DNA from: Globomyces pollinis-pini
Lineage: Eukaryota; Chytridiomycota; Chytridiomycetes; Rhizophydiales; Globomycetaceae
Assembly: GCA_025399215.1 (NCBI GenBank)
Contig: MU621166.1
Span: 1-64,000 of the forward strand
Reading direction: 5' to 3'
DNA: 64,000 bases
Positions 7,958-41,444 of the stretch are shown piece after piece; positions within the stretch are counted from its first letter, which is position 1; each line of letters begins with the position of its first letter. The notes below the pieces were generated by a model. The model worked only from the letters and a program-made list of their open reading frames with translations. It ran no database searches and had not been told where the DNA came from. Both the position numbers and the translations under genes were made by a program.

Positions 7958-9899
7958 ATGGTAACTGATATTGATGATTATTTCAAGGTATGTAGAATTT
8001 GAACATTCAGTTAATTTTGTTAGGTATTTCTATGTTACTCCTCTCATCCTTACTTAGGTTTGTTCTGATAATTTACCTAACCTTTTAAGCAAGAAGACAT
8101 TTTGAAAGTATTTGTTGATGCTCGTGGAAATAAATTGATGTCAGAATTCAATGAGAACTTGACAAAATCACAACCATTCAAGACTGTTAAACAGCGGAAG
8201 TTTAAAAAACCATTACCAATAGAAGAATCCATTCATAAATTCACATGTATATCAAACATGCTAAATAATCATAAAAAATTGCAATTTGAAAGGGAGACGA
8301 TTCAGCAGGTTTCTAAATGGTTAGTAATTGACTGCCTAGTTGATGGACAATTATATCGCTGACACAGATTTCAATTCCACTGCACAATTGATTACTCGTT
8401 TGTTAAAAAGCTCATTTCTACACACATTAAATGGGATTTGGATTATAGATATGATTGTTGTTACATTTCGGGAAACCGAAAAATTGACCCTCACTTTAGT
8501 AAAACGACTATCAATAGACAATGTAGAAATTCAATTGATCGCTCTAAAATTAATCACAGCTCTATTGGATGCTTCATTAAAAGTTAAAAAAGATTTGATT
8601 CAAATGGTTGAATGTTCAGGAGCTAGATATGCCGTCAATCAATTTCCAAAAGATTTAGAGTCGGACATGAAGCTGACAGTTGCTGATTTTCAGGAAGTTT
8701 ACATCCATTGTTATAAGTCTATTATTCATGTTCAAACATTTCCATTGGACCCATACCAACAAAATCTGATATCTGGATGTCTCTCGATATTAGACATACC
8801 CGAGGAGTCACCATTGTATCAGGTATTCAAAGTGTGTGTAACTGTAGGCATCCTTAGAGAGTCTCTACAGCAGTTCATTCATTGCTCTTGTCATTGTTAA
8901 TCGGTCTCTTAGAACGAATACTTATGTAAATTAGATAATTTATGTCTCACTGTCAGTTTAGAAAAATTCGTTCAAATTTTGGATTGATCAACGTCATGAT
9001 TGGCGTACATGGTATTATCATTAGAAACTGGATCCATACAGACCAAGGTAACAAGTAACATTGAAATTTTAATCAACAGAATTATCTAATATTAAGCATT
9101 TGTTTCTAAAATTGGAAGAATTACTCTATATTGGCATTAAACTATACACTAGACTGTTTTTATATATGGAAGCTGAGGATACGCCAAACGATACAGATTT
9201 GATCTTGGCAACAATTTCACATCAGTTTAAACTATTTTTATCCCTTAATGATGCTCTAAGCTTAGAATTGTTAGAAAAGTTTTTAAAATCAAAAACTGAC
9301 GAACAAATACGTGAAGAATACTTGAGAATGATGGTCACCAAACAACTTAGAGACAAAAAATCTACATTTTTGTATGATATTTAATTTTAAATTTTTATAG
9401 GAAATTGCGAAAAGCTGTCAATTTCACATGTATAGAAACAATTTTTCAAAGTCATTTGGAAACAATGATGAAAGGAAATTGGATGGTAATGGAAGTCAGT
9501 TTGCTACCAACTGCAAGATTCTTTCAGCTTGACCAGAACAAGTCAAAAATAAATTACAGTGAGGTGCATGTATTACGAAATGCATCAACTCCCCAACCAC
9601 CATTGATCAACTCAAGTATCCATTATTGGCAATTAATAATTTTAGTACAGTTTTCAGATATTATCGAATTATCGGAGTGTACTGAAAGTAAAGTGGGTAA
9701 CAGAAGATGGACAATGAAACTGAAACATCATGATTCACTTATGCTTCAGTTCAGTTCAGAAAAAATTCAAATTGATTGGGTAGATGGTATTCGATTTCTA
9801 TTGGAACAGGTGGATTGTATAACCAAAGAAACGAAAAAAGATATATCAAAGATGGCTGATTTAAGACTGATTCCTATCGAATTCAGTTTAGTTGCTTAA
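7958..9899 (+). CDS. ELMO/CED-12 family protein with C-terminal PH domain
   Basis: The ATG at 7958 (MVTDIDDYFK) joins in frame to QEDILKVFVDARGNKLMSEF once 7988-8089 is removed. An armadillo-like helical region follows (FNSTAQLITRLLKSS.., VEIQLIALKLITALLDAS), then the ELMO region (EVYIHCYKSIIHVQTFPLD) and, after a 29-nt intron near 9376-9404, a PH domain: FLKLRKAVNFTC, WTMKLKHHDSLMLQFSSEKI, DWVDGIRFLLEQ, ending MADLRLIPIEF. That tail matches the end of animal ELMO1-3 (SMEIKLRLLDLE). ELMO proteins work with DOCK exchange factors to activate Rac and steer actin. At least six introns are needed. The middle part around 8930-9100 is the least certain. Confidence 0.75.
7988..8089 (+). other. Back-to-back intron array, three modules
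   Basis: Three segments of 36, 34 and 32 nt (7988-8023, 8024-8057, 8058-8089) each begin GT and end AG and touch without any base between them. Removing all three joins ..GAT TAT TTC AAG to CAA GAA GAC ATT in frame within the ELMO gene. Confidence 0.7.
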
Positions 9900-31013: not shown

Positions 31014-32487
31014 GATGGTTGTCATTCTAAGTTCTTTGTACAATTGGATGTTTTTGAATTAAAATACAACAAAAAAGAGTGTAAACAGACTATATTAGTA
31101 GATTTGTCTTAGTTAGGTTATGAATGGGCCTGTGAACCAATATTGGATGGAGTAATTCGTGTTTTGATTTTCCCAATTATGAAACTATCCTGTGGTTGTT
31201 TAAACATTCAGATTCATACAGAAGGAAATCCTACATCCAAAAATGCCGATCCAATTCCGGATTTTATTGGTTTGGCCTTAGCATATTGATCTTAGGTTCA
31301 ACCTTCAACTCCATTGTTGACTTGCATAAGGTGATATTCAACTTGTTAACTCTACCAGGCTATTCCTTCATTAGTCCTAACTAAAACTGTAAATCAATTT
31401 AAAGTAGTTGCTTGTCTTGTTTGTTTTCTTAATGTTTATTGCTATACTGCTGAAAATACCAATACCTTAATAGTTAATAATTTAGCTCTAGTAATTAAAA
31501 TACTACTCACTTTGTAGAGAGATAAAGCTATTGATCAATTGAAGCTACATGCAGATTATTCTTCTATATTCCAAATAAAAATACCTTACAACGAATTCAA
31601 CTCAGAAACAGGAACAGGTAACCAATTTGTTATGGGACGTTTATTTGATTTAATAGGTTTTAATATACTAATTAATATCTTAGGTATAATAATTAGCCCT
31701 CACAATTTAGGTTTTTGCATTTGTATCTCATTCTAGATAAACATTGTAAGGGATTCCTTTTTTTAATGTTAGTCAATCAATATCTAAACGTTGAACAATC
31801 TTTGAAAGCTAAAGTGAGAAATTTCCTGATATCAAAACAAAACTCCCATGATGCCCAAATCAAAGCGTTGAAAATGAAATTACAGTCAGAGATGGATTTT
31901 TTAGAATTAGAAGGAAATGCAGCCTGTAATTCAATATTGAACAATTTAAATCACCATATGGGAAATCAAAATACCACTCACCAGAATGAAATTGTGAATG
32001 AAACAAGGCCAGATGTGATTGTTGACAATTTAAATAGCGGATTGACCTTCTCTGCTGATGATGATGCAATGTTTTCATTTGATGAGAGACCTAGGATCGT
32101 TTCCAAATATACTACAGACGAAATTGAATGTAAGATCTATTCTGGTTTATTTTGTTAGTTGACAAGATTGATGTTAAAGCTGAAAAGGGTATTCAGTGAC
32201 TATTGATAGCTAATTAATTTAGAAGGTATGTGCACTATTTTTAAATATGATTATCTTAGAAACAGTAAAATTCAAATTTTTATCCAGTTCGTTGCCAATC
32301 AAGGTGCCAACATTTGATCATAATACCGGGCAGAAGATTAAAAGTATAGAAGGTACCATTCTACTAGCGATTGTTAACTTTTTTAGACATTGAAGAAGAA
32401 TCTGGCTTTGAGCCTCCACATGTGTTTGCAGCGCGTACTTACGCAGCCGAATCAGTACTGGGAACCAAGCCATCCAATATACAATAA
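31014..32487 (+). CDS. Unknown multi-exon protein with coiled coil; start not found
   Basis: Conserved-looking exons join in frame: KFFVQLDVFELKYNKKEC, YEWACEPILDG, IHTEGNPTSKNADPIPDFIG, STFNSIVDLHKAIPSLVLTK, then after a long intron RDKAIDQLKLHADYSSIFQ, DKHCKGFLFLMLVNQYLNVE, an amphipathic helical stretch (KAKVRNFLISKQNSHDAQIK), acidic segments, and a tail SGFEPPHVFAARTYAAESVL ending before TAA at 32485. I do not recognise the family. The gene holds one back-to-back intron array (31618-31736) and a possible 3-nt exon (32223-32225). Frames before 31030 contain stops, so the true start lies in an exon I could not place. A possible extra exon (FCDGYDKSMTKNELSTLFDL, 32516-32575) may belong here or to the next gene. 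Confidence 0.5.
31618..31736 (+). other. Back-to-back intron array, four modules
   Basis: Modules 31618-31656 (39 nt), 31657-31683 (27), 31684-31710 (27) and 31711-31736 (26) each start GT and end TAG, with no base between. Removing all of them joins GGA ACA G to AT AAA CAT and continues the frame. Confidence 0.7.
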
Positions 32488-38041: not shown

Positions 38042-39834
38042 TCAAGTATCACAAGGCTTCCATTGTCGATACTCGATCGTTTCAGTAAATAACGGAATTT
38101 GATGTTGAATCAACCAATCTCGTGCCACAGGTTCTAACCCATCAAACAACTTGATACCTGGTATTGCGTTCTTGTCCATTTCTTTCGCTGCTCTGATACA
38201 AGCTCCAAGTGGGTAGCTTGGGAAGTGAATCTACTTTTAGTGGTTTTGTTTTTATACCAGTTGTTTGGATTTTGGGGAAAGGTATTGTTCGATTATGGCA
38301 TGTCGAGTTTGAATGATTAATTCATTGTTGGTGTTTTCGGTTGCTAATTGTCGATATTTTTTGATATCAAGTAGGAATTGTAGATTTTCAAGTCCTTGAT
38401 CATTTGCGAGATAATTGATAAAAAGTTGAGCCAAATCTGGATATGTTAAAATGTTCTCTAGGGCATTAGTGGGATTGATGGGGATTGTTTGTTCTGGGAG
38501 TTTGTCAATACTTCTTTGTGATTGTCGTAGGCCTAGTCTCTGATCGTATAGACTGTTTTTGCTAAGTGTCGATTGTGTTTCATTAATATGGCTATTGCTA
38601 TGTCTATGTTGTTTAAATGTAGCTATATTTATACCTTTTTGGTTAATTGGTAAATTATATCATACCTATTACATAAGTATCAAATGAATATACCTAAAGA
38701 ATTAGAACAAGCAAATTACCTTTGTGAGTGTCTATGTTTAGCAAAAGGAACGGAATCATTAAAGGAAGAAGTTGAACCAAAATCTTCAACAATCACAATA
38801 GGTTTTCTATAAATAACGATAAAGGAAGGCAATGCAAAAAAGAGGAGAAAGCATACAGTAGGAATCACAATTTCAATACTACGATTAAGAAACATTAGAA
38901 TACTAATCAATTAAATTATCAAACAACACAGTAGGATTATAAATATCAAACAGTTTGATGATAGCAGCAAAATCTAGTAACAAAAAAGTACCAATGTATT
39001 GGTATCTCAGTGCAAAAGTATCAGATTGACAACTAATGATGAGATTTTGGATATGAGTACTGAACAATGTAGGAAGCAGCAGCAATGTTTGAGAGTAAAA
39101 CAAAAATTAGAAGGATGATATTAAAAGCGGAGATGAATGGAGTAGGTTGGTCGTTCAAGTATGCTTGATAATCCCAAGGTGATGCTAGTGCAGTGAGGAT
39201 GATGAATGGGATGAGACAAATGTAAAAATATACTTTCCAAGTATATTTTTCTGTAGTAAGTCTTTTATAATGATCTAAGGTTAACTTTATCAACTATGTA
39301 CCTGATAGAGTGAGTGGTTACACAGAATACCTGAAATATTAGGATATTTTAAAGTACCTATCAATTTGTTTAAAAAAAGATTATAATACCTATGAGATGA
39401 GTGTTTTCATATTACAAAAAGTACCTTTTATAGATTAAATTTAGATAAAGATACCTTCGTGATCAACCGTTAAACCAAAAGATTGTTGAACATCAGCAAG
39501 TTTTGAATGGCAATAGTGTTTAAATATGAGTGGGAACCAACCACAGAAAGCTAATAAAGCTAATGGGATTAGAGAGTATAGTTTTACCCAAGATACGAGA
39601 AGTAGCGTCAATAGATTTCTGTGAAATTAAAGAAGCAGTTTCATAAGAATGTAGTAAAGATCTTAATATGGAATAAGAGAATAAGAGTAGACCTAAGAAA
39701 GGGGTGAAAGACCAAGCTCTATAAGCAATAGAAGGTCTTTGATAATATAGACAGAATATTGGTAGAGAAGGTAAATATATGATAGCATTTAAGATACAGC
39801 ATAATATAGATAAGTTTTTATCTGATACAATCAT
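38042..39834 (-). CDS. Seven-transmembrane protein with C-terminal RGS domain
   Basis: From the ATG at 39834 the spliced protein shows seven hydrophobic segments: ILCCILNAIIYLPSLPIFCL, TPFLGLLLFSYSILRSLL, ALLAFCGWFPLIF, FYICLIPFIILTALA, ISAFNIILLIFVLLSNIAA, IGTFLLLDFAAIIKLF and IVIPTVCFLLFFALPSFIVI. A Ser/Gln-rich linker leads to an RGS domain: NALENILTYPDLAQLFINYL, DQGLENLQFLLDIKKYRQL, AAKEMDKNAIPGIKLFD, ending QWKPCDT. 7TM-RGS proteins are known from fungi (GprK type) and plants (AtRGS1); the RGS part speeds GTP hydrolysis by G-alpha. The gene has two back-to-back intron arrays (38604-38719, 39275-39454). It is divergent from PDI across the TAGGGTT cluster. Confidence 0.8.
38604..38719 (-). 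other. Back-to-back intron array, four modules
   Basis: Read on the minus strand, modules of 26, 28, 31 and 31 nt (38694-38719, 38666-38693, 38635-38665, 38604-38634) each start GTA and end AG and abut directly. Removing all joins CAC TCA CAA AG to A CAT AGC AAT in frame. Confidence 0.75.
39275..39454 (-). other. Back-to-back intron array, six modules
   Basis: On the minus strand six modules of 30, 35, 32, 27, 29 and 27 nt (39425-39454, 39390-39424, 39358-39389, 39331-39357, 39302-39330, 39275-39301) all begin GTA and end AG with nothing between. Excising all 180 nt joins GTT GAT CAC GAA G to AT CAT TAT AAA AGA in frame, linking the third and fourth membrane segments. Confidence 0.78.
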
Positions 39835-39872
39835 ATTAAAGACGCGTTTCTTTGTAAGTAATAAGCCAACTG

Positions 39873-40023
39873 ATTAGGGTTAAAATCACTTGTTAGGGTT
39901 ACAAGTAGTTAGGGTTATTTTGTAGTTAGTAATAGTAATTAGGGTTACGAGTAGTTAGGGTTACTAGTAACTAGGGTTAGTAGTAGTAGTTAGGGTTACA
40001 AGTAGTTAGGGTTAGTAGGGTTA
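39873..40023. promoter_or_regulatory. Cluster of nine TAGGGTT (telobox-like) motifs in a divergent promoter
   Basis: TAGGGTT occurs nine times in about 150 bp, mostly as (g/a)gttagggtta with taca/tagt spacers, all in one orientation. It fills the gap between the divergent 7TM-RGS and PDI genes. AAACCCTA teloboxes are known promoter elements of ribosomal and housekeeping genes in plants and some fungi (bound by Tbf1/Trb-type proteins). The spacing is too loose for a telomere remnant. Confidence 0.5.
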
Positions 40024-40042
40024 TTTTATCCCTTGATTTTCC

Positions 40043-41444
40043 ATGCGATTGATTACTTTAATAGGATTCGCATTCGCTTCTTCTGTTGTTGATGTCACTT
40101 CTTCAAATTTAAAAAATGTATTCTTTTTTTTTAATCACTTAGATCATCGATGGTTCAAAAAATGTTTTACTAGAATTATATGCTCCTTGGTGTGGTCATT
40201 GTAAACAATTAGCCCCGTATATTATCTATTATTAATATTAGCGTATACGAAAATGTTGCTGATGCTTACAAAAAACATTCAGATATTATCATTGCTAAAG
40301 TAGATGCTGATAATTACAAAGATATTGCTACTAAATATAACGTTCAAGGTTTCCCTACTCTCAAATGGTATCCTTAAAACTTGATCTTACCTAAAGGTTC
40401 CCAAAAGGTTCAACGGATCCTGAAGACTACACTGGTGGACGTGACGAAGAATCTTTCTTTGATTTTATAAAGGAAAAAACTGGTTTGAAATCTGCTTTCA
40501 AAAAAGCACCTACCTCTGTTGTCGTTCTCTCCTCCTCAAATTTTGATGAAATCGTCTTGAATTCAAACAAAAATGTACTCGTAGAGTTTTATGCTCCTTG
40601 GTGTGGTCACTGTAAAAGTTTGGCTCCCATTTACGAAACTGTTGCAAAAGCATTCCAAACTGAATCCGATTGTATAGTGGCTAACTTGGATGCTACCAAA
40701 GCTGAAGATGTTGGCACTAGATATGATGTCACAGGCTACCCTACCTTAAAATTCTTTGCAAAAGATGGTTCCATTACTGAATATGAAGGTTTTTCCTACT
40801 TTTATTTATCTTTAGGTTCATCTTTTACTTATATTGATCCATAGGTTCTCAAAAACAGTTATATTGATAATAGGTTCTCTCAAGCTGTATTAATGCTAGG
40901 TTTATTGACTACTATTATTAATACCAGGTTCTCGTTCCAAATTGGATCTCATTGATTTCTTAAATAAACACTGTGGTACTTTCCGTAAAGAGGATGGGTC
41001 CATTACTTCTAAAGGTGGTTTGGTCTCAGATTTAGAACCATTGGTTGCGAAATTCTTGAAAGCTGATACTGCTTCAAAGGTCGAAATTGCCAAGGAAACC
41101 ACTACTAAGGGTGAAGCTCTCGGTTCAAAGTATTCTTTATAATGATGTTGACTATAGGTATTTAAAAATTTCAACACTAATTGTTTGTCAGGTATTTGGA
41201 TAATTTGAATAAATCTAATCAATTATTAGGTATGCAAAATATTATGGAAAAACAATGAACAAAATCATCAAGAACAGTGGATACATTGATAAAGAAGTTG
41301 CCAGATTAACAAAGTAACCATATTAAATTAATTAGTAGGATTTTGGATGCTGGAACTACTGCACCTGAAAAAGTGGATGACTTTATGATGAGACGTAATA
41401 TTCTAAACACTTTCCGTGGTCTTGATGGACATGAGGAATTGTAA
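40043..41444 (+). CDS. Protein disulfide isomerase, two thioredoxin domains plus ERp29-like C-terminal domain
   Basis: The ATG at 40043 gives a signal peptide ([20 protein letters not shown]). Two thioredoxin domains each keep the APWCGHC active site ([34 protein letters not shown]) and a cis-Pro ([15 protein letters not shown]). A C-terminal all-helical domain follows ([50 protein letters not shown]), as in ERp29 and the PDI-D group of Dictyostelium and plants. The protein ends DGHEEL; HEEL is a plausible ER-retrieval signal of the KDEL class. Eight or so introns, two of them back-to-back arrays. It folds secretory proteins in the ER. Confidence 0.9.
40789..40927 (+). other. Back-to-back intron array, five modules
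   Basis: Modules 40789-40815 (27 nt), 40816-40844 (29), 40845-40873 (29), 40874-40899 (26) and 40900-40927 (28) each start GTT and end AG and abut directly. The exon that follows also starts GTTCTC, like modules 3 and 4. Removing all joins TAT GAA G to GT TCT CGT in the PDI frame. Confidence 0.75.
41130..41229 (+). other. Back-to-back intron array, three modules
   Basis: Modules 41130-41157 (28 nt), 41158-41191 (34) and 41192-41229 (38) all start GTAT and end AG. The following exon also starts GTAT. Removing all joins GGT TCA AA to G TAT GCA AAA in the PDI frame. Confidence 0.75.

Follow-up and report, generated by a model that had tools for sequence, protein, structure and literature searches.

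Apparent head-to-tail arrays of mini-introns joined at AG/GT junctions in the chytrid Globomyces pollinis-pini

A gene of the chytrid Globomyces pollinis-pini that encodes a predicted 7TM-RGS protein is interrupted by a 180-nt run that reads, on the minus strand, as six very short introns placed end to end. Is such a run one intron, six introns, or an accident of base composition, and if six, how did they come to abut? The first-pass annotation of the 64,000-nt stretch that we analyzed (positions 1 to 64,000 of contig MU621166.1; hereafter, the window) had described six segments of 27–35 nt, each starting with GTA and ending with AG, with each AG touching the next GT, and we reproduced both their coordinates and their number from the sequence (Table 1). 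GTA starts and AG ends were present in six of six units, whose lengths sum to 180 nt, and all five internal joins were AG/GT, the ratchet-type juxtaposition of an acceptor with a donor. The upstream exon ends in ...GATCACGAAG and the downstream exon starts with ATCATTATAAAAG; once all 180 nt are removed, ...LTVDHE is fused to DHYKRL.... Whole-run removal therefore restores the frame, as had been claimed, but it is not the sole solution: among the 64 subsets of units that might be retained, two leave the frame open, one in which none is kept and one in which unit 4 alone is kept, which would add nine residues.

The RGS domain of the 462-amino-acid gene model was matched in Pfam with an E value of 8.3e-9. 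We read the model as containing seven hydrophobic segments, which would place the array between the third and fourth, and hydrophobic segments 77–95 and 132–150 indeed flank it, in keeping with the position first proposed. Among the 8,000 candidates scored, the lone database match to the model was P0121 (BC833DRAFT_588685 of G. pollinis-pini, 401 amino acids), which was identical to it over 87% of it and which, as a deposited gene-model protein, lacks both the six-unit array and a second, four-unit array of the same gene. Rfam returned no match within the window, and searches for second copies of two loci each returned just the locus itself. Between the 7TM-RGS gene and a neighboring PDI-like gene lie telomere-like CCCTAACTACT repeats (window positions about 39870–40025).

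Table 1. Arrays, array units and host genes in the window, with the evidence for each.
Feature	Position	Strand	Evidence
7TM-RGS gene, model of 462 aa	38042..39834	-	gene model, RGS by Pfam, hydropathy, P0121
Six-unit head-to-tail mini-intron array, 180 nt	39275..39454	-	sequence, gene finder, absence from deposited protein P0121
Array unit 1, 30 nt	39425..39454	-	AGGTA chain, gene finder
Array unit 2, 35 nt	39390..39424	-	AGGTA chain, gene finder
Array unit 3, 32 nt	39358..39389	-	AGGTA chain, gene finder
Array unit 4, 27 nt; sole unit retainable in frame without a stop	39331..39357	-	AGGTA chain, gene finder, subset test
Array unit 5, 29 nt	39302..39330	-	AGGTA chain, gene finder
Array unit 6, 27 nt	39275..39301	-	sequence, gene finder
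Second array of 7TM-RGS gene, four units (26, 28, 31, 31 nt)	38604..38719	-	AGGTA chain, gene finder, absent from P0121
PDI-like gene, model of 352 aa	40043..41444	+	gene model, matches to structures
Five-unit array (27, 29, 29, 26, 28 nt; GTT type), PDI-like gene	40789..40927	+	sequence, gene finder
Three-unit array (28, 34, 38 nt), PDI-like gene	41130..41229	+	gene finder
Predicted three-unit array (36, 34, 32 nt)	7988..8089	+	gene finder only
Predicted three-unit array (27, 27, 26 nt)	31657..31736	+	gene finder only

We also trained a small gene finder on 264 kb of sequence, made up of the window and twenty fixed 10-kb pieces. Under a flat length prior (18–250 nt) combined with a high penalty for each intron, arrays came out merged or split: in the six-unit array, for example, unit 4 was called as a 27-nt exon flanked by introns of 97 and 56 nt. 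Because of this behavior, we made a tiling test of the flat-prior gaps and a second run with a length prior, in which exon bases were omitted from the splice scores so that AG/GT was not favored. The length-prior run returned exactly the same six units. It also gave 31 cases, 18 in the window, in which successive introns had zero bases between them, compared with 0–3 occurrences of each exon length from 1 to 20 nt, and introns outside 18–44 nt were rare (27 of 709). Runs of two or more units numbered 14 among 678, of which 8 were in the pieces, one of these including a doubtful 157-nt piece; with the other 6, the window is rich in arrays for its 64 kb of the 264 kb.

In the flat-prior run, 349 of the 550 predicted introns were 18–39 nt long, 66 were 40–99 nt and 135 were 100 nt or more, a distribution that peaks at 23–38 nt with a thin, flat background above. 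Taken as a class, the 201 gaps of at least 40 nt are in our reading probably for the most part wrongly joined genes. Gaps of at least 45 nt that tiled fully into units numbered 9 of 191, compared with about 0.9 in shuffles, and of the 182 that did not tile, 132 were longer than 100 nt.

We then compared array units with single introns, using 31 array models, some of which are pieces of one array and 17 of which came from loci fetched for their AGGTA chains; runs with any unit outside 20–42 nt, such as the run with the 157-nt piece in L024, were excluded. The units averaged 29.1 ± 2.9 nt (n = 122) and the single introns 28.7 ± 2.9 nt (n = 615), a correspondence that the first-pass annotation had noted in the window and that extends to the six units at 27–35 nt. 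Scored as a group, most units (101 of 122) had a YTNAY branch motif at the right distance, as did most single introns (489 of 615), compared with 51% in the Markov control. The reversed motif YANTY was also common (70 of 122 units, 333 of 615 singles), so the branch motif is weak when taken alone. Moreover, our own gene model had helped to choose some of the units on which these statistics are based, and we therefore repeated the motif count on units picked solely by the spacing of AGGT[AT] in chains of four or more junctions. Of these spacing-only units, 77 of 87 contained YTNAY, compared with 43.3 ± 4.4 (maximum 56) in 500 shuffles; random GT..AG segments (n = 721), whose GC content is higher, had the motif in 31% of cases. 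Splice-site scores at internal sites were similar to those of single introns (p = 0.11 for donors, 0.16 for acceptors), with donor scores of 0.47 for first, 0.07 for internal and -0.08 for last units, the internal and last ones being slightly lower. Of the 122 units, 8 could be retained singly without closing the frame. By length, branch motif and splice-site scores alike, array units look like complete introns of the single kind.

These comparisons bear on the simplest alternative, in which each run is one longer intron, spliced from its first GT to its last AG, and the internal AG/GT sites are leftovers of a minisatellite that the spliceosome ignores. Such an intron would yield an identical protein, P0121 included; internal donors do score slightly below first donors; and the flat-prior predictions do contain gaps of at least 40 nt. 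Against it, intron lengths in this genome peak at 23–38 nt with little above, and ignored repeats should have lost both the branch motifs, which the spacing-only units keep far above shuffles, and the splice-site scores, which at internal sites are like those of real ones. We therefore regard the single-long-intron reading as unlikely, though it deserves to be kept in view. With a spliceosome that handles introns of ~23–38 nt, and with units that keep their signals, removal unit by unit is the most likely course, and arrays are probably processed in this way. The units would most likely be excised singly and in any order, each AG/GT serving as the acceptor for one unit and the donor for the next, and every complete order of removal would give the same mRNA.

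Arrays at other loci cut, as whole runs, into conserved protein sequence. In an HDAC6-like deacetylase, six units fall inside LDWDVHHGNG; a CLK-like kinase has five at HDLG/LIHTDLKPEN, and a PHYHD1-like dioxygenase has ten (contig C12 from 42083, locus L029), and in each of these cases the spliced model matches solved structures across the site. For the PDI-like gene of the window, the listed matches span the five-unit site (residue 222), and the three-unit site (residue 290) was reached by none of the 60 matches listed. In an HD-domain protein, five units lie just upstream of the Pfam match. For the ten-unit gene, the deposited protein P0122 includes units 4 and 8 (57 nt) as 19 residues. The residues of these two units are missing both from P0124, a relative from Boothiomyces, and from 2opw, a solved structure, which leads us to read their retention as an annotation error, although some transcripts may retain them. 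More generally, an exon of zero length is awkward to annotate, so that deposited models may not be reliable at arrays; P0122 differs by two whole units from our model and from relatives. On the minus strand of locus L037 (contig C451), two arrays lie within 1.4 kb of each other, one of them with nine units by spacing and two identical 28-mers; the flanks, joined by eye, read IGG/TSLGGGT, which may be a pantothenate-kinase motif.

If the units are introns, the question becomes how they came to adjoin, for which either repeated insertion or duplication at an AG/GT junction had been suggested. In the ten-unit array two identical 28-mers adjoin among less similar units, and the C451 array likewise has two identical neighboring units. 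Overall, adjacent units (91 pairs) resembled each other more closely than did units taken from separate arrays (p = 1e-5), and non-adjacent pairs of the same array showed a weaker tendency in the same direction (p = 0.017); 10 of 91 adjacent and 11 of 137 non-adjacent pairs exceeded the 99th percentile of between-array pairs. The 15 unit pairs of the six-unit array were no more alike than between-array pairs (lowest tail fraction 0.055), and in most other arrays, too, no clear similarity between units is left. For some arrays, then, the alike neighbors give good support to tandem duplication; for the others, the six-unit array included, we infer it.

Separate insertion events are the other way to build such a run: mobile or reverse-spliced introns, of the introner-like kind, would have entered earlier AG/GT junctions one after another. 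AG/GT is a proto-splice site reported as preferred for intron gain (PMC3443670), and in most arrays, including the six-unit one, the units look unrelated. However, ungapped genome searches that allowed up to 3 mismatches found no other match for unit 5 of the six-unit array and no copy elsewhere of the identical units from the C12 and C451 arrays, so that none of the three units searched had a near copy outside its own array, let alone the dispersed near-identical copies typical of introners. Where similar units are present, they are neighbors or members of the same array. Judged by the three units searched and by these resemblances, independent insertion seems improbable to us as the source of the arrays.

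We consider it likely that the run in the 7TM-RGS gene is a tandem array of mini-introns that were duplicated at AG/GT, have kept their signals and are removed singly. An array could be born through the exact duplication of one mini-intron, whose exon/intron edge and own end share AG or AGGT: slippage or end joining over this short homology would copy precisely one intron. The two copies would form a ~29-bp repeat, able to grow and shrink like a minisatellite, and they would diverge freely except at the donor, branch site and acceptor, which would be preserved because each unit must still be recognized. The proposed role of AG/GT homology, which we infer, agrees with a published model in which exonic pieces are duplicated (PMC4974935, PMC3443670).

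How often would such runs arise by chance? We counted AGGTA junction chains with 20–40-nt spacing on both strands of 50 third-order Markov copies of the window, which gave means of 1.98 doublets and 0.04 triplets and, in all 50 copies, zero chains of four or more. The real window has three doublets together with chains of 3, 4 and 6, and its excess sits in the long chains, the doublets being near expectation (3 vs 1.98). The genome scan for such runs, called for when the array was first noticed, likewise placed them above chance: genome-wide, AGGTA triplets numbered 311 (146 + 165) at N{20,35} but 16 (6 + 10) at N{60,75}, and at least 3 of these 16 (in C49, C424 and C451) hold an extra AGGTA at intron spacing inside. 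Doublets numbered 1404 at intron spacing and 679 at N{78,93}. A reversed-pattern control gave 106 for triplets, below the real 311, but it exceeded the real counts for doublets (2249 vs 1404) and for a first, looser pattern (691 vs 523), we think because the reversed word, ATGGA, is common; our assessment of chance rests on the spacing controls and not on the reversed-pattern ones. An unbiased random 200 kb showed a small excess of AGGTA and AGGT[AT] pairs at intron spacing, and arrays are a minority of intron positions. The notion that the run is an accident, AG and GT being frequent in AT-rich DNA and having been joined by eye, can appeal to the frequency of AGGT[AT] pairs, to their small excess in the random 200 kb and to the reversed-pattern controls for doublets and the loose pattern, but with triplets so enriched at intron spacing, no Markov window containing a chain of four, and conserved proteins intact on either side of arrays, it is already contradicted by the genome scan and scarcely merits belief.

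Complete spliceosomal introns arrayed head to tail have not, to our knowledge, been reported. A search of titles and abstract openings in the open-licence PMC literature also found no description of them, and we class the arrays as an apparently new form of complex intron. Several known systems share features with them. In the stwintrons of ascomycete fungi, two or more spliceosomal introns also form one intervening sequence that is spliced consecutively (PMC7138796, PMC9024468, PMC12403724), but there one intron lies within a splice element of another, which fixes the order of removal (PMC7138796). The six-unit array was rightly set apart from stwintrons: each of its units has an intact GTA and AG, no outer donor, branch site or acceptor is interrupted by an inner intron, and the units simply abut. 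The ratchet points of recursive splicing in Drosophila similarly juxtapose AG and GT at an apparent zero-nucleotide exon; unlike the arrays, with their ~29-nt spacing and up to ten units, ratchet points lie in long introns and are reported to require a cryptic exon (PMC8605326), whereas the whole six-unit run spans 180 nt. At the dual-specific splice sites of the polyubiquitin gene UBC, one AGGT can be both donor and acceptor within tandem repeats, but those repeats are coding monomers kept in variable number (PMC10809524), whereas the array repeats are non-coding, intron-sized and set within single-copy protein sequence.

Intron gain through duplication around AGGT, which creates splice sites in the process, is a closer precedent for the proposed origin (PMC3629103, PMC3443670). 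Two gained introns of fission yeasts, in two genes, comprise tandem 24-nt exonic repeats (PMC3629103), one of the two cases being called unsettled in the same paper, and the proto-splice site there is given as AGGC but cited as AGGT by PMC4974935. In those cases a duplicated exonic piece became one intron, whereas the arrays repeat the intron itself with its own signals. Introners and introner-like elements show how a single genome can rapidly acquire many introns that are alike, but they are dispersed across genes (PMC9860276, PMC4457414), unlike the three array units searched. Part of the dispute over how introns are gained comes from the usual loss of the sequences they were derived from, as two papers note (PMC3629103, PMC4974935); some of the arrays still have the source next to its copy, and others look older.

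How introns are defined could likewise be studied in the arrays as a natural experiment, in which one AG/GT would be used as both acceptor and donor in series of 2 to 10 units. We put it at somewhat better than even that tandem intron arrays are a distinct architecture of a lineage whose spliceosome reads introns of ~29 nt, in which the intron acts as the repeat unit of a minisatellite. Arrays would then arise through duplication mediated by AG/GT, grow to at least ten units, occupy hundreds of sites, and be tolerated because modular, order-free splicing unit by unit leaves no trace of their length in the mRNA.

Two further loci show repeats on a similar scale. At C2:114782-114855 (minus strand), three exact 23-nt units lie between AGGTA junctions, which may be either a very short intron array or an unrelated minisatellite. 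The second lies at the 5′ end of the CLK-like kinase gene (L001:2466-2747, minus strand; contig C1), in a region of which the gene finder modeled part only and in a different frame. Six exon-like pieces of 15 nt, almost the same in sequence and with a predicted product of (YDDRR)n, are interspersed there with seven intron-like stretches of 25–30 nt, a pattern that reads as conserved coding pieces separated by diverged introns.
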